Positions 1-8,217 of a stretch of DNA of 9,531 nt are shown one piece after another (positions within the stretch are counted from its first letter, which is position 1; every line of letters begins with the position of its first letter). A program made the position numbers and the translations under genes. The notes beneath the pieces are model-generated. The model had not been told where the DNA came from and did not search any database. It saw only the letters and a list, made by a program, of their open reading frames with translations. The stretch comes from Bacteroidota bacterium (GTDB taxonomy: Bacteria > Bacteroidota > Bacteroidia > Bacteroidales > UBA10428): positions 1-9,531 of the forward strand of contig JAHEEB010000098.1 in the NCBI GenBank assembly GCA_024640925.1, in the 5' to 3' direction.

Positions 1-174
1 TTTTGCAGAAATGTTATAATATACTTTAATTACAATTTGCAAAGTAAAGTATTCGATTTATTTCATCGGAACCTTTATGATAGTGGGGCTCTGATACTTG
101 GCATGCACGAAACAATTTTAGGATCTTACTCAGTTAAATTTCAGAAAAAAGGACATGTATACTATAAAAATTAA
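1..174 (+). CDS. cheR: CheR-type protein methyltransferase, C-terminal fragment (cut by window start)
   Basis: Frame 1 is open from the first base to a TAA at 172-174 and gives 57 residues matching the end of the CheR catalytic domain. It opens with FCRNVIIYFN, the conserved CRNV-IYF motif near the SAM pocket, followed by an amphipathic helix (LQSKVFDLFHRNL) and a GALILGMHETI strand that matches the usual 'GGLL.LG.SE' element. CheR transfers methyl groups from S-adenosylmethionine to glutamate side chains of sensory coiled coils. The rest of the gene lies upstream of the window. Its stop is only two bases before the next start, so the two are almost certainly co-transcribed. Unlike the second CheR at 2367, this copy keeps the Cys of the CRNV motif and looks canonical where visible. 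Family assignment is firm; substrate is unknown. Confidence 0.85.
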   Translation, partial: FCRNVIIYFNYNLQSKVFDLFHRNLYDSGALILGMHETILGSYSVKFQKKGHVYYKN

Positions 175-176
175 AA

Positions 177-2354
177 ATGGCTTCCAGGATTAAACATATT
201 ACATCAAGGTTTTGGATTCATATAATTGTATCAACACTTTTGTTAATACTTTTATTGGTTTTTGCATTAAGTGCTTCTTATTTTAAAAAAGAAGTCATTA
301 GAATTGCAGAGGTAAATGATAATATAACCTCTAAACTTGAGATTCTGCAATATAATTATGAAAAATCATTATTGCTTCAGAAGAGCGATCCTGCCTTCGT
401 GTCAACAACTTGTGATAAAATAATACTCGAACAAAAACAACTAATTAAAAGCATCACAGATACAATTGAGAAGATTTCTAACCTTCCTTACATAAAATTT
501 TCTGTTGAAAAAAGCAGTCTGGATACTCTTTATCTCTTTTTTGATAATTACTCTATTGCTTTTGAAAAAACACTTCTTTCACTTAAAGAAATGGGCAACT
601 ATAATCAGGGTCTTGCTGTTTCAATTATTGCCCCTTCTAATCAATTGTCCGATGTTTTATTCAGAAATACTCTGCTGTCACAAAAATCTTCTGAATTAAA
701 ACAGAAAACCAACTCTTTCCTTCTATCATTAAATGCTGAATCACTGGTTGTATTGGAACAATTTTGCCAAGATTTAAAAGATCAAATCATATTGGAAGGA
801 ATTGATCCGAGCCAATTTGATGCTCCAATTTATGATTTACAAAAGAGTCTTTCAGATATTAAAGAAGTTGAAACCCGTTTGTTTGATCCTGCAACCAACA
901 AAGGTCAGCTTTTTGATCTCAATTTTTTTTATAACCAGACAAATCATTCTTATAAACGACTTAGCTTTATTATAAACAAAAACATAAAAAATGTTCTTTT
1001 TTACTGGAATTTTTGGCTTATATTTTTTGCAATAATACTTATAGCTGTTAATTTTAGCTTATTATTCCGATTTTCTCGTAAATTAGCCCGCCAACTTAAA
1101 TCCCTTTTAAATTCAACTATTCAATTATCGAAGGGGTCGCTTGAGGTAGAATTTTCAACTAATGCGGCCTATGAATTTAATGAATTGAACCTGCACCTTT
1201 CTACTTTCAAAACACATCTTACCGAAAAGAAAAATTTTGTTGATAAACTTTTATCAAAGGAGTTTGATCGGGAAATTGAGTTGCTGAGTGATAAAGATGA
1301 GCTCGGGGCAAAGCTTATAGCATTGAAAGAACAAATGCTTTCAGCAAAGAAAGAGCAGGAAATCCATAATAAAGAGACTGAAAGTAACAGGTATATAAAC
1401 GAAGGATTGGCAAAATTTGCTGATATCATGAGGCAGAACAACAACAATACCGTTGCTCTTGGCGATAGTTTAATAAGGGCGCTTGTAAAACATATTGAAG
1501 TTCAACAAGGAAGCATTTTCCTTACAGATGAAGAAAATGAAAACAGGCTGAACTTAATTTCTGCCTTTGCCTTTGATAGAAAGAAATACTTAACAAAAAC
1601 CATACAAAAAGGAGAAGGTTTAGTTGGTACATGCGCTGTGGAAAAAAACACTATCAACCTTATTGAAGTACCTGAAGAATATATCTCGATTAAATCGGGA
1701 TTAGGTGATACTCCTCCCAGAAACATTCTCATTGTTCCGGTTATGCATGAATTAACACTTGTTGGTGTTGTTGAACTGGCTTCACTAAAAATTCTTAACA
1801 ATTATGAAATAGAACTTACAGAACAAATATGTGCGAGCCTGGCTTCTACAATTATTACTGTTAGAAACAATACTAAAACAGCCCAGCTACTTGAAAAGTC
1901 GCAACAACAGGCTGCTGAAATGGCCGAACAAGAAGAAGAAATGCGACAAAACATGGAGGAATTAAAAGCTACACAAGAAGAATCGGCGCGTAGGGAAGAA
2001 GAATTGATTGGAATTATTGAAGCCATAGGAACCAGTTTCTTTGTAATCGAATACAATACAGATGGAACAATTAGTCATATTAACGAACGATTAGGCAGGT
2101 TTCTAAATCAACCTGTTGATTCTATTATAAACCGTAAACACCAGGAAGTATTTTCAACTAAATCTGTAATTAATTCCGATTTATTTTCGGATTTGTATAA
2201 AAACCGAAAATCTATAAATATAACTGAAACTTTATACTGGGGGAACAGAGAATATTTATATAAGCATTCCATTTCTCCTGTACTTAATAAATATAGTGAA
2301 GTATTGAAGATTATTAATTTACTGACTATTGAAGAGAAAAAACCAAACAACTAA
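177..2354 (+). CDS. Membrane sensor protein with HAMP-like, GAF and PAS domains and no output domain
   Basis: This is a 725-residue inner-membrane sensor. Residues 12-33 form a transmembrane helix and residues 34-272 a predicted extracytoplasmic, mostly helical sensor region. Residues 273-298 form a second transmembrane helix, followed by a HAMP-like linker (about 299-350) and helical connector. A GAF domain spans about 420-560 and contains GEGLVG (479-484), a VPEEY segment and a SGLGDTPP segment. A Glu/Gln-rich coiled coil (about 565-610) contains RQNMEELKATQEE (590-602), and a PAS-like domain (about 610-718) closes the protein. No histidine kinase, cyclase, phosphatase or classical MCP tip is present, so the signal must leave through protein contacts or through modification of the coiled coil. 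It sits between two CheR genes, which makes it a natural candidate methylation substrate (inference). The ATG start is two bases after the upstream stop and is followed directly by the first membrane helix. Domain edges are estimates. Confidence 0.85.
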   Translation: MASRIKHITSRFWIHIIVSTLLLILLLVFALSASYFKKEVIRIAEVNDNITSKLEILQYNYEKSLLLQKSDPAFVSTTCDKIILEQKQLIKSITDTIEKISNLPYIKFSVEKSSLDTLYLFFDNYSIAFEKTLLSLKEMGNYNQGLAVSIIAPSNQLSDVLFRNTLLSQKSSELKQKTNSFLLSLNAESLVVLEQFCQDLKDQIILEGIDPSQFDAPIYDLQKSLSDIKEVETRLFDPATNKGQLFDLNFFYNQTNHSYKRLSFIINKNIKNVLFYWNFWLIFFAIILIAVNFSLLFRFSRKLARQLKSLLNSTIQLSKGSLEVEFSTNAAYEFNELNLHLSTFKTHLTEKKNFVDKLLSKEFDREIELLSDKDELGAKLIALKEQMLSAKKEQEIHNKETESNRYINEGLAKFADIMRQNNNNTVALGDSLIRALVKHIEVQQGSIFLTDEENENRLNLISAFAFDRKKYLTKTIQKGEGLVGTCAVEKNTINLIEVPEEYISIKSGLGDTPPRNILIVPVMHELTLVGVVELASLKILNNYEIELTEQICASLASTIITVRNNTKTAQLLEKSQQQAAEMAEQEEEMRQNMEELKATQEESARREEELIGIIEAIGTSFFVIEYNTDGTISHINERLGRFLNQPVDSIINRKHQEVFSTKSVINSDLFSDLYKNRKSINITETLYWGNREYLYKHSISPVLNKYSEVLKIINLLTIEEKKPNN

Positions 2355-2366
2355 ACAATTTTTTTC

Positions 2367-3194
2367 ATGGTAGAATTAGGCATTGTAGATATTAGAGAAA
2401 TTGTTCGGATCATAAAAAAATCATACGATTATGATTTTTCGAACTTTGCTTTAACATCTTTCAAATATAGCCTCGAGAAAGTTATGGCTGTCAACGGGCT
2501 TATTAATGCCGAAAATCTTTTCCGCAAACTTAGTGATGCTCCGGATTTCTTCGATTCATTTCTGCACGACTTGTTCATTCCATCGACAGAAATGTTCCGC
2601 GATCCTTCTTTATGGCGCTGGCTTCGGGAGGAACATTTTTATAACATGCCTGAACGACACCTCGATAATTACAAGATATGGATACCTCAGTGCATATCGG
2701 GTGCAGAACTGTATAGCCTTTGTATCTTACTTAAAGAAATTGATTTAATTGATAAGGTAAAAATATTTGCGTCGGTTTATAGCAACAAAAGCCTGGAATT
2801 TATTAAATCGGGTAGATATCCATTAAAGAAACTCGAAGTTTCCAAAGAAAACTATGTTCGTTTCCAGGGATCTAATACTCTGGAAACCTATTATACTTTA
2901 TCAAACAATGAGGCAATCAGAGATACTTCGTTAATAAAATCTGTGGAATTTATTAAAGATGACATTAACTTTAGCAAAGCACCCCAGAATTTAAAACTTA
3001 TACTTTTCAGAAATGTCATGATTTATTATAATCCAACCTTACAAAATCTGATACTCGATAAAATGAACAAAAGTTTGTCTGCGGCAGGCAACCTGATTAT
3101 AGGAATAAAAGAAACCTTAAAGCCATCAAATGCTTTAAGCACCTCATTTGAATTAATCAATAATAACGAAAGTATTTATAAAAGAAAGATTTGA
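2367..3194 (+). CDS. cheR: Divergent CheR-type methyltransferase, possibly with impaired SAM site
   Basis: The 275-residue product has the CheR layout: an N-terminal helical domain (about 1-70), then the TEMFRDP motif (74-80; the family has T.FFR), CISGAELYS (109-117; usually C.TGEE.YS), IFASVYSNKSLE (133-144), GRYPL (149-153) and LFRNVMIYYNP (213-223). Several family positions differ. The Asp of the usual ATDI(N/D) strand, which binds SAM in Salmonella CheR, is Val137. The first Glu of TGEE is Ala113. The Cys of CRNV is Phe214. The Arg-Asn-Val core (215-217) and the aromatic pair are kept. CheR normally methylates receptor glutamates; here activity may be weak, altered or lost, leaving a binding or regulatory role. 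It starts 12 bases after the sensor gene and overlaps the cheB start by four bases. The family call is secure; catalytic competence is in doubt. Confidence 0.85.
   Translation: MVELGIVDIREIVRIIKKSYDYDFSNFALTSFKYSLEKVMAVNGLINAENLFRKLSDAPDFFDSFLHDLFIPSTEMFRDPSLWRWLREEHFYNMPERHLDNYKIWIPQCISGAELYSLCILLKEIDLIDKVKIFASVYSNKSLEFIKSGRYPLKKLEVSKENYVRFQGSNTLETYYTLSNNEAIRDTSLIKSVEFIKDDINFSKAPQNLKLILFRNVMIYYNPTLQNLILDKMNKSLSAAGNLIIGIKETLKPSNALSTSFELINNNESIYKRKI
3191..3194 (+). promoter_or_regulatory. TTGA start/stop overlap, cheR to cheB
   Basis: The TTG start of cheB (3191-3193) overlaps the TGA stop of the second cheR (3192-3194). This kind of overlap usually means translational coupling and would keep methyltransferase and methylesterase in fixed ratio. 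It also supports TTG as the real start, because no in-frame ATG precedes the catalytic GGSAG. Confidence 0.6.
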
Positions 3195-3772
3195 ACATAG
3201 ATGTAACGAAATATAAGGCGCTGATTATTGGCGGTTCTGCCGGGAGTTTCCAGGTTGTTACAAAGATATTGAGTTCTTTGTCCGATAAATTTCCAATACC
3301 GGTACTTTTATGTCTTCACCGATTAAAACATGTGCGATCAGGGTTCGTAGAAGCACTCTCTTTAAAATCAAACATACCTATTGAAGAACCCAATGATAAA
3401 GATCAGTTAAAACCCGGAAGGGCTTACCTTGCTCCTGCCAATTATCATATGTTTATAGAACTGGCTAATCGCATCGCTCTTTCAACAGACGATCCAGTCA
3501 ATCATTCAAGGCCTTCGATTGATCTATCGTTTACTACTGCAGCCAATGCTTACCGAGATAAACTTATTGCCATCATTTTGTCTGGAGCTAATCGCGATGG
3601 TGCCTTAGGATTGAAAGTAGTTTCTGAAAGAGGTGGAATTACTATTGTCCAGGATCCTAAGGAATGTGAAGTGAAAACAATGACGGAATCCGCCATGCAA
3701 CTTACCAAGGTTGATTATGTTTATTCAACTGAAGAAATTATAAGGTTTTTATCAAAACTAAATTATACTTGA
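3191..3772 (+). CDS. cheB: Stand-alone CheB-type protein-glutamate methylesterase domain
   Basis: This 193-residue cytoplasmic protein is only the catalytic domain of CheB; the usual N-terminal receiver domain and linker are missing. The catalytic triad can be placed: Ser16 in IIGGSAGS (12-19), His43 in CLHRLKH (41-47) and Asp136 in LSGANRDGALG (130-140). The KPGRAYLAPANYHM segment (74-87) and the late VQDP (153-156) and MTESAM (164-169) segments are also typical of the family. CheB hydrolyses glutamate methyl esters, or deamidates glutamine, in sensory coiled coils and so reverses CheR. Without a receiver it cannot be controlled by CheA-type phosphorylation in cis. The TTG start is chosen because the catalytic GGSAG begins at residue 14, no ATG lies in frame before it, and the TTG overlaps the cheR stop (TTGA), which suggests translational coupling. 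The ATG of the next gene shares its last base with this stop. Confidence 0.88.
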   Translation: MNIDVTKYKALIIGGSAGSFQVVTKILSSLSDKFPIPVLLCLHRLKHVRSGFVEALSLKSNIPIEEPNDKDQLKPGRAYLAPANYHMFIELANRIALSTDDPVNHSRPSIDLSFTTAANAYRDKLIAIILSGANRDGALGLKVVSERGGITIVQDPKECEVKTMTESAMQLTKVDYVYSTEEIIRFLSKLNYT

Positions 3773-3774
3773 TG
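3770..3774 (+). promoter_or_regulatory. TGATG stop/start overlap, cheB to GAF protein
   Basis: The TGA stop of cheB (3770-3772) shares its last base with the ATG of the membrane GAF gene (3772-3774). The arrangement favours the ATG over the TTG one codon upstream and suggests coupled translation. Confidence 0.6.
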
Positions 3775-4551
3775 CAAACGATCAAATATAAAAAATATAT
3801 TATCATGTCGTTCGTGGTGGCTTGCCTCCTTCTTATTATGCAAGCTATAGTATTTTGGAATGTCATTGCAAACAATAAAAAATCACCGGGAATCTGGCCT
3901 TTTCTGCTTCTGATTATTGCCTTGTTGGCTCTTGGTTATATGTTTTCTGTTTTTTTAAAAACAACTAACTCCGAACAAATTGAAGCTGCAATTAATAATA
4001 AAGTAGCTGAAGAGAGAGCAAAAATTCTTAAAGATTTAGAAAAGAACGATAATCTGGTACAAGAAGATGATCAAGAAATATACATAGAAAATACAGCAAA
4101 AGAACTCATTCCAAAAGGAAACTTTAAAAATCTCCCATCACTTATTGAGAAATTCCTCAATAATATTGCAAATACATTTGAAATTGTTCAGGGTATAGTC
4201 TATATTAAGGAAAAAGGAAATAATGAATTTATCTTTTCATCAGGCTATGCATTAACCAGCGACAAAAAACCCGATAGTTTCAAACCTGGGGAAACTTTAC
4301 CAGGCCAGGTTGCTATAAGTAATGCTATAACGTATATTAATGATATCCCGGAAAATTACTTTTTTATTTTTTCCGGATTAGGACAATCCAAACCCAAACA
4401 ACTAACATTTATTCCACTTCTACTCGATAATGAAGTATTTGGTATTATAGAAATTGCTACATTTAAACCTATAGAAGGAAACAACAGGAAAATACTTGAA
4501 AAAACAATACAAAATATATCAACCAAAATGTCTCAAACCATTAAGTCATAA
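3772..4551 (+). CDS. Two-helix membrane protein with cytoplasmic GAF domain
   Basis: The product is 259 residues from the ATG at 3772, which overlaps the cheB stop as TGATG. A TTG one codon earlier is possible but less likely. Two hydrophobic helices (about 8-33 and 41-63) form a hairpin with almost no extracytoplasmic loop. A charged coiled coil (about 66-95) and a GAF domain (about 118-258) follow. The GAF carries the same landmarks as its two larger neighbours: GETLPG (173-178), IPENY (192-196) and SGLGQSKP (201-208), then an IPLL...FGIIEIAT strand pair. There is no effector domain and no post-GAF coiled-coil motif. GAF domains bind small ligands or mediate dimerisation. A role as accessory sensor or heterodimer partner for the other two GAF proteins is inference. 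Its specific function is not recognised. Confidence 0.8.
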   Translation: MQTIKYKKYIIMSFVVACLLLIMQAIVFWNVIANNKKSPGIWPFLLLIIALLALGYMFSVFLKTTNSEQIEAAINNKVAEERAKILKDLEKNDNLVQEDDQEIYIENTAKELIPKGNFKNLPSLIEKFLNNIANTFEIVQGIVYIKEKGNNEFIFSSGYALTSDKKPDSFKPGETLPGQVAISNAITYINDIPENYFFIFSGLGQSKPKQLTFIPLLLDNEVFGIIEIATFKPIEGNNRKILEKTIQNISTKMSQTIKS

Positions 4552-4557
4552 GACTTT

Positions 4558-7182
4558 ATGAGTAAAATAAAAGAACTATATAATAAATTCATTCTAAGCC
4601 AGCAAAATATTCCTCTTCTGGCATTAATAATCAGTATTTTAGTTATTATACTGGCATGGATAACACAATTTCTGGTTAGTCATTTACCATTTACAATTGA
4701 CAATTTCGTTAAAATTCATCAGACTAATCATGTTCTGTTCCTTATCGACTTTTTCCCCTTTGTCTCTTATCTTTTGCTCTTTATTATAGAACAAAAAAGA
4801 AAGGACGAAAAAAACAAGTTTAACAAAGAGATTGAAAAACGCGAACAGACCCTAAATGCAATGGCCGATTTTGCCAAACAGATAGGTGAAGGAAATTTTA
4901 AATCGAGGCTTGACATTGATACCCATAATAATATACTGGCTCATTCACTGTTTTTGATGCGCGAAAACCTTGCTTCGAATCATAAGAAAGAAACCGAACA
5001 AAGTTGGATAGCTGAAGGCAAGGAAATTATTTCTGACATACTTCGAATGCATAATAAAATCGAAGAATTGTCAATCAAAGTCATTCAGGAACTTGTTAAG
5101 TATGTTAGTGCGGTTCAAGGTGCTTTATATATTTACGAAGAAGATAAAAAAATACTCAGGAATATTGCTACTTATGCTTATAACCGCAGGAAATATATTA
5201 ACCAGGAATTCAAATTGGGACATGGATTAATTGGTGAATGCGGATTTGAGAAAGAATATATTTACCGGACCGAAATACCAGATGACTATGCCACAATAAC
5301 CTCCGGGATTTTAGGAGAACAAAAACCCCAGAGCATATTGCTTGTACCATTAATATCCGATGAGAAACTCCAGGGCGTTATTGAATTTGCAAGCCTTAAT
5401 AAAGAAATCCCTGAGTTAACTGTTCGATTTTTAATTGAGCTTGGCGAAGTTATTGCCCGCACCTTATTTAACCTGCGAATTAATCAAAAAACTGAGCAAC
5501 TGTTACAAGAAGCTCAAATAATGACTCGCGAGTTACAGGAAAACGAAGAGCAACTGCGGCAAAATGCCGAAGAAATGCGTGCCACTCAGGAAGAACTCCA
5601 AAAATCGAACGAACAACTTGCTACAAACATTCTAAAAGTTGAAAACGCACAAAAGAGGCTACACTCCTTACTTGAAAATGCTTCTGAAATTATCTCCATT
5701 TATAATAAAGATTTCGAATTAACTTACGAGAGTCCTTCTGTAGGAAACATTCTTGGCTATTCAACTGACGAGATGATGAGTGGTAAAGATATGGACAGGC
5801 TTACACGAAAAGGTGAAACTGCCTATCGTGATATGTTTAAACAACTGATGGAAAATCCGAAAAAGCCTGTAACTATCCAGTATACTTACATGAAGAAAAA
5901 TGGCCAGAAGATTTTCCTTGAGACTACTGGCCGAAACCTGCTTCACGATTCTGCCATCCAGGGTATTATTCTCAATTCCACCGATATTACTGAGCGCAAG
6001 CGAGCAGAAAAAGAAGAGCGCATGCGAAGTAAAATGCAGGCTTTATCTGAGAATTCGCTTGATCTGATAATGCGTCTGAGTACTGTGGGACAATTCTTTT
6101 ATGCCAATCCTATAACCAAACAATACTTAGGCCTTGATGTAAAAGATCTGTTAAATAGAACATTAAATGAGGTTGAATTTTCTGATATCTTGTTTAATTA
6201 TTTCCGCGAAACAATTGAGCAGGTAAAAGCAAATCCTGTAAAAGCAAACGCTGAAATTACAATCCCAACCAAAATCAATGATGTCAGAGAAGACAGGATT
6301 ATGAGCTTTGTTGCCATTCCAGAGTTCAACGAAAACGAACTGGAAACAATATTATTTGTTGGGCACGACATTACTGAAGCCAAACGTATAGAACTCGAAA
6401 TACAGGATAAAAATCGGAAAATTGAAGATTCCATTAACTATGCACAGCGTATTCAAACCTCCATATTGCCCGATAACAGAATTATTCGCGAGTATCTTCC
6501 AAAATCTTTTATATTCTATCGCCCGCGTGATGTAGTAAGCGGAGACTTTCCATGGTTCTTCCAAAAAGGCGATATTACTTATATAGCAGTGGTAGACTGT
6601 ACCGGACATGGTGTACCCGGTGCCCTGCTTTCATTTATCGGTTATTTCCTCTTGAACAATATTGTTGACCACGACAAGGAGCATTCCGCTGCAAGCATAA
6701 TCGACGATTTGCACCATAGGGTCAGAAAAACCCTTAAACAGGATTATATGGATGCTGAAGCCCGGGATGGTATGGACATTGCTTTCTGCCGTATAGATTC
6801 GCAAAAGAAAGAACTTCAATTTAGTGGAGCCCATAGAGCTCTTTATATGTTAAGAAGTGGTGAACTTGAAGAATTCAAAGGCGATCGAAAGGCAATTGGT
6901 GGTATACCTCAGAAGAATAAAGAGGAAAAAGAATTTACTAACCATGTTATTAATTATAGCTCAGGTGATAAAATATTCTTCTTTTCCGATGGCTTACCTG
7001 ATCAACTTGGCGGACCAGAATTAAAAAAATATTCTCCAAGGCGTATCCGGGAAAACATTGTTGAAAATAAAAATTTATCGATGGAAGAATTCAACACTTT
7101 TTTTGCAAAAGATTTTGAAGATTATCAAGGCGATAATAAACAAATTGATGATGTATTGCTTATAGGTATAGAATTAAATTGA
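4558..7182 (+). CDS. Membrane-bound GAF/PAS-regulated SpoIIE-family (PP2C) serine/threonine phosphatase, SiaA-like
   Basis: This 874-residue protein starts six bases after the previous stop. Two transmembrane helices (about 18-40 and 58-77) are followed by a HAMP-like stretch (about 90-140), GAF (about 160-310), coiled coil with EEQLRQNAEEMRATQEE (330-346), PAS 1 (about 365-480, ending in DITER) and PAS 2 (about 487-607, ending in DITEAKR). A linker, KIEDSINYAQRIQTSILP (621-638), leads into the SpoIIE/PP2C domain (about 640-873). The phosphatase motifs are present: SGDF (661-664), VVDCTGHGVPG (678-688), DGMD (737-740), SGAH (756-759), SDG (810-812) and IDD (863-865), supplying the acidic metal ligands. 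One oddity is Pro665, where close relatives usually have Tyr (SGDFYW). By analogy to SiaA it should dephosphorylate the SiaC-like protein encoded at 7837, opposing the SiaB-like kinase just downstream. Family assignment is firm; the substrate is inferred from context. Confidence 0.92.
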   Translation: MSKIKELYNKFILSQQNIPLLALIISILVIILAWITQFLVSHLPFTIDNFVKIHQTNHVLFLIDFFPFVSYLLLFIIEQKRKDEKNKFNKEIEKREQTLNAMADFAKQIGEGNFKSRLDIDTHNNILAHSLFLMRENLASNHKKETEQSWIAEGKEIISDILRMHNKIEELSIKVIQELVKYVSAVQGALYIYEEDKKILRNIATYAYNRRKYINQEFKLGHGLIGECGFEKEYIYRTEIPDDYATITSGILGEQKPQSILLVPLISDEKLQGVIEFASLNKEIPELTVRFLIELGEVIARTLFNLRINQKTEQLLQEAQIMTRELQENEEQLRQNAEEMRATQEELQKSNEQLATNILKVENAQKRLHSLLENASEIISIYNKDFELTYESPSVGNILGYSTDEMMSGKDMDRLTRKGETAYRDMFKQLMENPKKPVTIQYTYMKKNGQKIFLETTGRNLLHDSAIQGIILNSTDITERKRAEKEERMRSKMQALSENSLDLIMRLSTVGQFFYANPITKQYLGLDVKDLLNRTLNEVEFSDILFNYFRETIEQVKANPVKANAEITIPTKINDVREDRIMSFVAIPEFNENELETILFVGHDITEAKRIELEIQDKNRKIEDSINYAQRIQTSILPDNRIIREYLPKSFIFYRPRDVVSGDFPWFFQKGDITYIAVVDCTGHGVPGALLSFIGYFLLNNIVDHDKEHSAASIIDDLHHRVRKTLKQDYMDAEARDGMDIAFCRIDSQKKELQFSGAHRALYMLRSGELEEFKGDRKAIGGIPQKNKEEKEFTNHVINYSSGDKIFFFSDGLPDQLGGPELKKYSPRRIRENIVENKNLSMEEFNTFFAKDFEDYQGDNKQIDDVLLIGIELN

Positions 7183-7203
7183 TTGATATTAAAACGGTTA
7201 ACT

Positions 7204-7782
7204 ATGGATAACAAGAAAGATGTAAAAGGCTTCCTGGAATTTGTTTACGAGTTTTACAAATCGATGAAAGCCCATGAGATTACCCTGGTGTATGAAGGAG
7301 AAATAACTCATCAGATCACTAAGGCGTTTACTTCACTTACCGAGTCGAACATGGCTAAAGATGATGAACCTGGCACTGTTCAACGTAAAGTATTTCATGT
7401 TATGGTAGAATGTTTACAGAATATCAGCAAACATGCCGATGACTTTACTTCAAGTGATTTCATGTTTTCTGGGAGAGGAATATTTCTTGTTAGTAAAGGC
7501 GATAATGAATACAGTGTTACTACCGGTAATGCTGTCGACAATGACCGTATTGAAGAACTTACTAACATGCTTGAGAGTATTAACAGAATGAATAAAGATG
7601 AACTCAAGGATCTATACAAAAAACAGATGAAAGAAGGCCGCCTGTCGGAAAAAGGGGGTGCTGGTTTAGGTTTTATTGATATCAAACGTAAAACCGGCAG
7701 AGATTTGGAATATCACTTTTTACCCATTTCTGATGATACTTCATTCTTTTTATTAACTTCGACTATTGGAAGAGATGAGTAA
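7204..7782 (+). CDS. siaB: SiaB-family GHKL protein kinase
   Basis: The product is 192 residues from the ATG at 7204. A TTG at 7183, immediately after the phosphatase stop, would add seven residues; I prefer the ATG because MDNKKDVKGFLEFVYEFY resembles the usual start of the family. It is an HATPase-like fold: an N-box-like EC LQN-ISKHAD element (Glu69 and Asn73, with His77 close by), a TGNAV segment (107-111) where histidine kinases have the D.G.G box, and a glycine-rich SEKGGAGLGFIDI loop (148-160) for ATP phosphate binding. No dimerisation domain with a phospho-accepting His is present, as expected for a serine/threonine kinase of this class. Pseudomonas SiaB phosphorylates SiaC; the SiaC homologue is the next gene and the opposing phosphatase the previous one, so the same reaction is likely here. 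It is a soluble cytoplasmic protein. Confidence 0.88.
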   Translation: MDNKKDVKGFLEFVYEFYKSMKAHEITLVYEGEITHQITKAFTSLTESNMAKDDEPGTVQRKVFHVMVECLQNISKHADDFTSSDFMFSGRGIFLVSKGDNEYSVTTGNAVDNDRIEELTNMLESINRMNKDELKDLYKKQMKEGRLSEKGGAGLGFIDIKRKTGRDLEYHFLPISDDTSFFLLTSTIGRDE

Positions 7783-7836
7783 TTTTAATTATTTTTATTT
7801 CATATTCATTTCAAAAAATTCTATAAAAGCTCTGCT
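7783..7836 (+). other. A/T-rich 54-base spacer before siaC
   Basis: This is the longest gap in the window and is almost entirely A and T. I find no Bacteroidota-type promoter pair (TTTG and TAnnTTTG), no clear hairpin terminator and no strong ribosome binding site; the A-rich stretch AAAAAATTCTATAAAAG lies just ahead of the siaC ATG. It probably acts only as a translation leader within the operon. Confidence 0.4.
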
Positions 7837-8217
7837 ATGGAAACAATAAAAATACAAGGCACGGAAGATACCCCAAAAGTAATACTTGATAAAGAAAAAG
7901 AAGCTATGGAAATATCAGGGCGTTCGCTTCCGGAGGATGTAGCTTCGTTTTACGATCCTATTCTGACTTGGCTTGACGAATATGCTCAATCTCCTAACAA
8001 AAAGACTATCTTTAATTTTAAGCTTACTTATTTCAATACAGCTTCATCAAAACTTTTGCTCGATATATTAATGAAGCTTGAAGAAATACATGAAGCCGGG
8101 CACGATGTGTTAATCAAATGGCATTATCCCGAAGATGATGAAGATATGGAAGAAGCCGGAGAAGAATATGCTGATATTGTAGATGTACCATTTGAACAAG
8201 TTCCTTATTCGCTGTAA
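7837..8217 (+). CDS. siaC: SiaC-family switch protein (DUF1987)
   Basis: This 126-residue cytoplasmic protein matches the SiaC/DUF1987 family in length and layout. It has an N-terminal IKIQGTEDTPKVILD segment, then MEISGRSLPEDVASFYDPI (24-42), an aromatic WLDEY, and YFNTASSKLLLDIL (65-78), the most conserved stretch of the family. It ends in a very acidic tail region (about 98-116). Thr68 lies in the FNTASS motif; from memory, Thr68 is the residue phosphorylated by SiaB in Pseudomonas aeruginosa, so the number and the motif both agree. In Pseudomonas the unphosphorylated form activates the diguanylate cyclase SiaD. No such cyclase is in this window, so the downstream target here is unknown. 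The fold is related to STAS anti-sigma antagonists, which fits partner switching with a GHKL kinase and a PP2C phosphatase. Confidence 0.9.
   Translation: METIKIQGTEDTPKVILDKEKEAMEISGRSLPEDVASFYDPILTWLDEYAQSPNKKTIFNFKLTYFNTASSKLLLDILMKLEEIHEAGHDVLIKWHYPEDDEDMEEAGEEYADIVDVPFEQVPYSL

Follow-up and report, generated by a model that had tools for sequence, protein, structure and literature searches.

Gene content of the window

The window analyzed here is the entire 9,531-base contig JAHEEB010000098.1 of a Bacteroidota bacterium of the order Bacteroidales (GCA_024640925.1), whose genome assembly is fragmented (82% complete, 1,131 contigs). It contains, collinear on one strand, genes for the methyltransferase CheR, a stand-alone CheB methylesterase, three GAF proteins, a SpoIIE phosphatase, SiaB, and SiaC, followed by a TerB-ABC transporter gene (Table 1). 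We present evidence that this gene set is a conserved operon whose CheR and CheB may act on a coiled-coil box shared by GAF receptors and the phosphatase. Domains of window proteins were called with Pfam, and SiaB was also scored against an NCBIfam subfamily cut-off. These matches confirmed the stand-alone CheB, three GAF proteins, SpoIIE protein, SiaB, and SiaC that a first-pass annotation had read from the DNA as one collinear set, and the gaps between successive genes from GAF1 to SiaC (12, -4, -4, 6, 0, and 54 bases) span the -4 to 54 bases that it gave. The second of the two CheR genes that it listed (CheR2) is complete, but the first (CheR1) is present as just a 57-residue C-terminal piece of a gene that is full in relatives (~280 residues). 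Likewise, the content assigned to a cluster ending with SiaC at position 8217 stands, but the cluster runs on into the TerB and ABC-transporter gene, which starts 33 bases further on. CheA, CheW, receiver, and methyl-accepting chemotaxis protein (MCP) domains were not found by Pfam among the window proteins. Sigma-70-type promoters and terminators were no more frequent in a scan of the window than in shuffled sequence, and a Bacteroidota-type promoter pattern matched once, on the opposite strand.

Table 1. Genes and sites in the 9,531-base window
Feature	Position	Strand	Basis or comment
CheR1, C-terminal 57 residues; gene cut by contig edge	1..174	+	PF01739 positions 141-187, E 1e-8
GAF1, membrane receptor of 725 residues; helical periplasmic region, transmembrane segment, HAMP-like, GAF, box, PAS	177..2354	+	Pfam GAF; AlphaFold; PAS and HAMP under Pfam cut-off
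Coiled-coil box of GAF1, residues 582-605	1920..1991	+	Predicted methyl-accepting site
EELKAT in GAF1 box, residues 594-599	1956..1973		E595 favored predicted site
CheR2, methyltransferase paralogue with degenerate S-adenosylmethionine (SAM) site	2367..3194	+	PF01739, E 1e-23
CheB, stand-alone methylesterase without receiver	3191..3772	+	PF01339, E 5e-49
GAFs, small membrane protein with GAF domain	3769..4551	+	Pfam; usual gene 3' of CheB
GAF-box-PAS-PAS-SpoIIE (PP2C) phosphatase, 874 residues	4558..7182	+	SpoIIE, E 1e-16; C-terminal 260 residues SiaA-like
Phosphatase box, residues 325-347	5530..5598	+	Predicted methyl-accepting site
EEMRAT in phosphatase box, residues 338-343	5569..5586		
SiaB-family kinase (DUF6272/SiaB)	7183..7782	+	Pfam, E 5e-42; NF038262 above cut-off
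SiaC	7837..8217	+	Pfam, E 3e-43; T68 codon at 8038-8040
TerB and ABC ATPase, candidate output; gene cut by contig end	8251..9531	+	Pfam

Conservation of the operon in relatives

We compared gene neighborhoods in two sets of relatives, annotated by means of profiles derived from the window and locus L007. Set A comprised 60 loci fetched from relatives, 48 of which hold a close CheB, and set B comprised the best 80 of at least 436 confirmed CheB relatives, 79 of which have a CheB open reading frame (ORF). The sets overlap, with 16 of the 80 set-B contigs apparently common to both; L072 and L230, in which CheB was missed in ORF calling, were left out of neighborhood counts. CheB orthologues were selected by hand at an identity of at least 46%, and the closest CheB among the matches listed is from Bacteroidales (L179, 92% identity).

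The gene order CheR1-(GAF1)-CheR2-CheB-GAFs-GAF/box/PAS/PAS/SpoIIE-SiaB-SiaC-TerB/ABC-lipoprotein-like gene is preserved from Bacteroidales to Microscillaceae. In 60 of the 79 set-B loci, SiaC is encoded on the CheB strand, at most 7 genes 3' of CheB; the remainder consists of one locus with SiaC on the opposite strand (L256), 13 that end at a contig edge, and 5 without it. For set A, SiaC lies within 6 genes of CheB in 31 of 48 loci, while 6 end too early, 10 are without it, and one has no CheB ORF called. Genes are tightly packed across relatives (median intergenic gaps of 3-43 bases), with 124 cases of adjacent CheB and GAFs genes and 89 pairs of SiaC with the TerB/ABC gene (median gap 43 bases). 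Beyond the order Bacteroidales, the operon occurs with a single CheR in three genomes of family f10 (L144-L146) and in Cytophagales/Microscilla-type records (L254, L257, L258). SiaC is encoded by 48 of 48 genomes with this CheB compared to 8 of 51 without it.

In 13 genomes, we also looked outside the CheB locus for the GAF-SpoIIE-SiaB-SiaC block; these comprised 10 in which cheRB lies apart from siaABC and 3 whose locus is cut by a contig end. The block was found in 6 of the former (G327, G333, G360, G371, G377, G380) and all 3 of the latter (G334, G372, G381); no such block turned up in G350, G353, G373, and G392, from which only some SiaC matches were fetched. We conclude that the linkage of cheRB with siaABC is far beyond chance and is real and old.

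A conserved box matching the methylation consensus

GAF1 and the phosphatase share a conserved coiled-coil box, QEEEMRQNMEELxATQEE, in the helix that follows the GAF domain, where the stretch reads QEEEMRQNMEELKATQEE or NEEQLRQNAEEMRATQEE in the two long proteins. The EELKAT and EEMRAT sequences of these boxes exactly match the E. coli methylation consensus, as given in PMC1079850. When we scored the strict consensus EExxA[ST] at the box, it was present in 39 of 44 receptors picked by gene position rather than by the box itself; among 22 receptors with a mean column identity of 36%, the box contains 13 invariant columns. The phosphatases of CheB-centered loci, counted without five from loci fetched through the box, carry the strict consensus in 65 of 84 cases and a relaxed form in 70 of 84. 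By comparison, other Glx-Glx pairs met the consensus in only 5 of 591 cases in receptors and 12 of 1113 in phosphatases. Phosphatases of the split genomes, in which cheRB lies apart, showed the consensus in 0 of 7 cases (p 8e-5), or in 1 of 9 when two box-fetched loci are included (p 2e-4).

This loss of the consensus when cheRB is unlinked fits a box that is maintained by the linked enzymes, although shared descent may contribute. Because the consensus is steadier in the receptors than in the phosphatase, the receptors are probably the main acceptors, and the phosphatase is probably a second acceptor only where it is linked. Of the acceptor candidates proposed by the first-pass annotation, the 725- and 874-residue proteins, both thus bear the E. 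coli consensus, but that of the phosphatase is the less constant. Methylation of the box glutamates is predicted, with E595 of the 725-residue protein and E339 of the 874-residue protein as concrete sites. The Glu pairs of the box also repeat every seven residues; such spacing of Glu-Glu pairs occurs widely in GAF-PAS coils, and we therefore dropped this spacing alone as evidence. Sites 297, 304, and 311 of Tsr are likewise seven residues apart (PMC1079850).

The box also tracks this CheB. A 27-base pattern encoding EE[LM]x[AT]TQEE was found in 45 of 99 relatives, and a reversed control pattern was found in none of the 99. By CheB content, the box was present in 42 of 48 genomes with this CheB compared to 3 of 51 without it, and in 23 of 29 compared to 1 of 48 when one genome was taken per family (p 4e-13), which is the fairer count, since shared descent plays some part in these tests. 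SiaC was present in all 45 box genomes. Other CheB types showed no association with the box (0 of 12 compared to 1 of 36). Across 296 genomes sampled from the phylum, four encode a CheB of this subfamily (>300 bits; next best 200), and all four are box-positive; the one other box-positive genome holds the box inside a CheB-CheR fusion (L155). This phylum test was not blind, as two of the four genomes were in the CheB model; with a model built without those two, three CheB proteins of family f10 score 288-299 bits compared to 164-204 bits for 12 other stand-alone CheB proteins. The presence of CheR was rejected as a predictor of the box, because all five box genomes have CheR but so do 187 of the 296.

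A control pattern, EE[LM]xxTNEE, matched 31 of the 99 relatives and was weakly associated with the module (22 of 48 compared to 9 of 51); part of this association arises because the contigs of 27 of the 67 listed matches also bear a long CheB ORF. Several CheB-CheR fusions seem to bear tandem EExxxT heptads (G305:C60, G353:C301, G356:C173, and others).

Box receptors without an output domain

The fetched loci encode 34 box proteins, namely 4 GAF-SpoIIE phosphatases, 1 hybrid kinase, 1 CheB-CheR fusion, and 28 other GAF proteins that match no kinase, SpoIIE, or receiver domain and of which 27 have at least one predicted membrane segment. Pfam scans of nine of these 28 found GAF in all nine, HAMP in five, dCache and MCP-like PDC in three, and Reg_prop in one; no output domain was found in these nine, and the MCPsignal domain (PF00015) matched neither the window proteins nor the 10 box proteins scanned. 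In six box receptors, the box finishes 20-32 residues before the C-terminus. The conserved box with its consensus match, which is new here, also marks membrane receptors without an output domain.

In family f10, in Cytophagales, and in Microscilla-type records, the receptor architecture is fused with SpoIIE in one protein, which suggests that box receptors and phosphatase act together. Homology of the GAF1 sensor region to the Cytophagales fusion was considered and rejected, because profile comparison detected no relation between the sensor regions (probability 0.1), so that the two share architecture only. A fold search with the model of the 725-residue protein returned chiefly GAF, PAS, and phytochrome-type matches and did not place the sensor part. 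At L178 (1964-6295), a GAF protein of 1,444 residues has the box in two copies.

The CheR and CheB enzymes

The SAM site separates the two methyltransferases, although the functional roles of its residues are those that we presume. For CheR1, 99% of 94 relatives have both Gly residues, the second Glu, and the Asp, and 96% carry Gln in place of the first Glu. Among 95 CheR2 sequences, the second Gly (94%) and second Glu (92%) are largely retained, but the first Gly remains in just 18% and the Asp is replaced (S 38%, C 23%, V 11%, and others); the window copy has V at the Asp, and Q is also among its substituted SAM-site residues. CheR1 therefore looks like the active methyltransferase, and CheR2, having lost the first Gly and the Asp, is read as a putative non-catalytic partner. 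Among lineages with a single CheR, the active type stands beside CheB in family f10, in Microscilla-type records, and at L082, and CheR2 is the only type at L080 and L084.

CheB is a protein of 193 residues in which PF01339 is the sole domain above cut-off and an N-terminal receiver is absent. S16, H43, and D136, which we take to be the Ser-His-Asp triad, do not vary across 22 sequences and line up with those of CheB proteins of solved structure. A paralogous stand-alone CheR-CheB pair adjoins GAF-histidine kinase-receiver hybrids at eight loci (L095, L096, L098, L101, L102, L103, L105, L106), whose hosts are other families of the order and genome G302 of the same genus.

The SiaABC switch and the TerB-ABC gene

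The SiaA model NF038263 matches the phosphatase over residues 611-871 only, and the Asp columns that we assume to form the SpoIIE metal site are kept across relatives. SiaB scores 172.7 bits against NF038262 (cut-off 85), and the SiaC domain scores 146.8 bits against PF09345; a comparison of SiaC with PHROGs gave no match. T68 of SiaC, which is T in 79 of 80 operon SiaC sequences, aligns with T68 of P. aeruginosa SiaC, the residue phosphorylated by SiaB in that species (PMC8457831). The Pseudomonas equivalog models for SiaA, SiaB, and SiaC all scored below cut-off (NF038263, 179/700 bits; NF038264, 78/225; NF038265, 90/150). By these scores, the switch is of the same kind as the Pseudomonas SiaABC system and not the same equivalog.

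The SiaD diguanylate cyclase is absent from the operon, and the gene after SiaC encodes TerB-ABC, which is a candidate output because it is the usual neighbor of SiaC. A full-length relative (L047, 16047-19145) contains TerB, an ABC ATPase, and an ABC2 membrane part; no Pfam family matches the region that separates TerB from the ATPase. The next gene in relatives encodes a protein of ~300 residues that appears lipoprotein-like by eye and had no Pfam match in the one partial copy scanned.

SiaC is strongly expanded in these organisms, with 14 matches in the source genome and up to 21 in relatives, and any SiaC occurs in just 18 of the 296 phylum genomes. Of the 13 other SiaC matches of the source genome, just two adjoin a SpoIIE match, both of them TPR-like by eye and lacking GAF and the box.

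Relation to CheA-dependent chemotaxis

The first-pass annotation had reported no CheA, CheW, CheY, or MCP among the genes, which the Pfam scan bears out for the window but not for the genome as a whole. The source genome has two CheA-type matches, 18 MCP matches, and a CheW-CheR-HATPase-CheD-CheB(receiver)-GAF/PAS cluster on a separate contig (C932). The HATPase between CheR and CheD in this cluster (L007, G000:C932, 1676-2554) has a weak HisKA match (18 bits; cut-off 26.9) and an apparent Asn at what we take to be the position of the phospho-accepting His (FISNICNEIVNP), and is likely a pseudokinase.

Across relatives, however, neither CheA (PF02895) nor MCP (PF00015) was matched in 14 of the 48 genomes that encode this CheB, and 12 of these 14 are listed as >90% complete. 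Genome G335, which is 99% complete, has one CheB match and five box proteins and no match to CheA or MCP. CheW lies within 12 genes of CheB in only 1 of 47 loci assessed. Because of the 14 genomes without either match, a hidden chemotaxis array does not explain the module, and this CheR/CheB pair does not require an MCP and need not serve a histidine-kinase array. The methylation-tuned route without a histidine kinase that was proposed from the window is thus partly supported, as to linkage and as to CheR/CheB not requiring CheA or MCPs, but the complete CheR of the window, CheR2, is the one with SAM-site losses.

Proposed mechanism and alternative explanations

We propose that the cluster is a conserved sensory operon in which CheR1 and CheB methylate and demethylate box glutamates of the GAF receptors and of the linked SpoIIE phosphatase, thereby tuning the dephosphorylation of SiaC against SiaB, a reading to which we assign close to an even chance. 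The sequences themselves show which genes are present, how they are ordered and conserved, and that the box exists, fits the consensus, and occurs together with this CheB; methylation, phosphatase control, and output are inferred. In the proposed scheme, a ligand at a box receptor would change the HAMP-GAF-box helix, and receptor and phosphatase would pair through their common GAF and box, possibly in mixed helical bundles. SpoIIE would then dephosphorylate SiaC, opposing SiaB, and CheR1, as the presumed methylating enzyme, would together with CheB slowly reset the charge of the box, such that methylation would serve as the adaptation step. The target of dephosphorylated SiaC may be the TerB-ABC transporter of the adjacent gene, in which case this transporter would stand in for SiaD. 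More tentatively, and at somewhat less than an even chance, the module may represent a second kind of chemosensory system, in which HAMP-GAF-box receptors with MCP-like sensor domains have their own CheR/CheB and a PP2C and SiaB/SiaC output in place of CheA/CheY.

Several observations weigh against this proposal. The strict consensus is absent from 19 of 84 phosphatases in CheB-centered loci and the relaxed form from 14 of 84; 8 of 9 split-genome phosphatases lack the strict form, and the ninth was fetched through the box. Since the consensus is gone there, the phosphatase is probably not an acceptor in split genomes. Confidence in the box helices is low in the structure models. Seven of the eight hybrid kinases beside the other CheR-CheB pair lack a GAF-coil consensus, and L106 has the relaxed form only. 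An exact match to the box is missing from six genomes that encode this CheB, all six without MCP; variant boxes occur in two of them (L084, L092). Conservation of cheRB apart from siaABC, which the first-pass annotation regarded as telling against its proposal, is seen in part, in 10 of 48 set-A loci; it took the same view of a complete chemotaxis array just upstream, and in one genome (L090) a complete CheA array does immediately precede the operon. Finally, MCPs are commoner with the module (33 of 48 genomes compared to 8 of 51), such that sharing with a CheA array is possible.

This last point leads to an alternative that we consider unlikely, though not negligible, in which the box receptors are shared, signaling to CheA/CheW as well as to the SiaABC switch, with CheR/CheB adapting the receptors for either. 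The MCP counts just given favor it, as do the facts that most genomes with CheA also carry the module, that L090 has both systems in a row, and that a box gene follows a receiver-type CheB within 4 kb in 11 of 27 genomes with listed box positions (a count that leaves out 11 of 38 CheB matches without a box or listed position). The 14 of 48 module genomes without CheA and MCP matches, and the five box proteins of the nearly complete G335, argue against such sharing.

It is quite unlikely that the box is merely a structural signaling coil between GAF and PAS and that CheR/CheB target GAFs, SiaC, or a small molecule. The commonness of heptad Glu-Glu pairs in GAF-PAS coils, the position of GAFs rather than GAF1 as the usual neighbor of CheB, and the many phosphatases without the consensus are compatible with this possibility. 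Against it stand the Ala-Ser/Thr half of the consensus, which occurs at the box far above background, the tracking of this CheB by the box across families, and the loss of the phosphatase consensus when cheRB is elsewhere. Improbable is the idea that CheR/CheB serve an ordinary MCP/CheA array and lie near siaABC through operon history, which the MCP and CheA-type matches of the source genome and the 10 of 48 separated loci would allow, but which conflicts with the 14 of 48 module genomes without MCP and CheA matches, with SiaC in 48 of 48 genomes, and with the GAF-SpoIIE-SiaB-SiaC block found elsewhere in 6 of 10 split genomes and 3 with a cut locus.

Significance and comparison with known systems

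Many Bacteroidales and some Cytophagales carry the cluster, which likely allows them to readjust their sensors through predicted methylation in the absence of the standard chemotaxis kinase. In chemotaxis, reversible methylation of glutamates is the classic form of memory, and textbooks describe it as operating on the MCPs that control CheA. If our proposal is true, this kind of memory would be coupled to a Ser/Thr phosphatase switch that has a receptor class of its own, spread over a large part of the sampled Bacteroidales, including genomes without any CheA match. We found no account of this operon or box in the open-license literature, subscription papers and preprints being outside the search.

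Methylation by CheR of a non-MCP protein has been reported for PhoP of Salmonella (PMC8546571). Compared to the phylum's CheB-CheR fusions, which are single fused proteins, the present enzymes are encoded separately; the L155 fusion holds the box and has a histidine-kinase/receiver gene next to it with no SiaABC there, and several fusions are on contigs with EExxxTNEE coil matches. The SiaABCD system of Pseudomonas aeruginosa (PMC8457831) has the same row of SpoIIE/PP2C, SiaB, and SiaC, with SiaC T68 kept. By contrast, the present operon has no SiaD, has a GAF-box-PAS input in place of the SiaA sensor part, and adds CheR, CheB, a GAF receptor, and TerB-ABC. The Che1 locus of Shewanella oneidensis with CrsR/CrsA likewise combines CheR, CheB, and a partner switch, but it holds CheA, CheY, CheW, and MCPs (PMC9855816), none of which is found in the present cluster. 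Adaptation of E. coli MCPs (PMC1079850) likewise uses CheR and CheB, the same consensus, and Glu pairs seven residues apart, whereas here HAMP-GAF-box(-PAS) forms the end of the receptors, in which no MCP signaling domain was found, and CheB is without a receiver.

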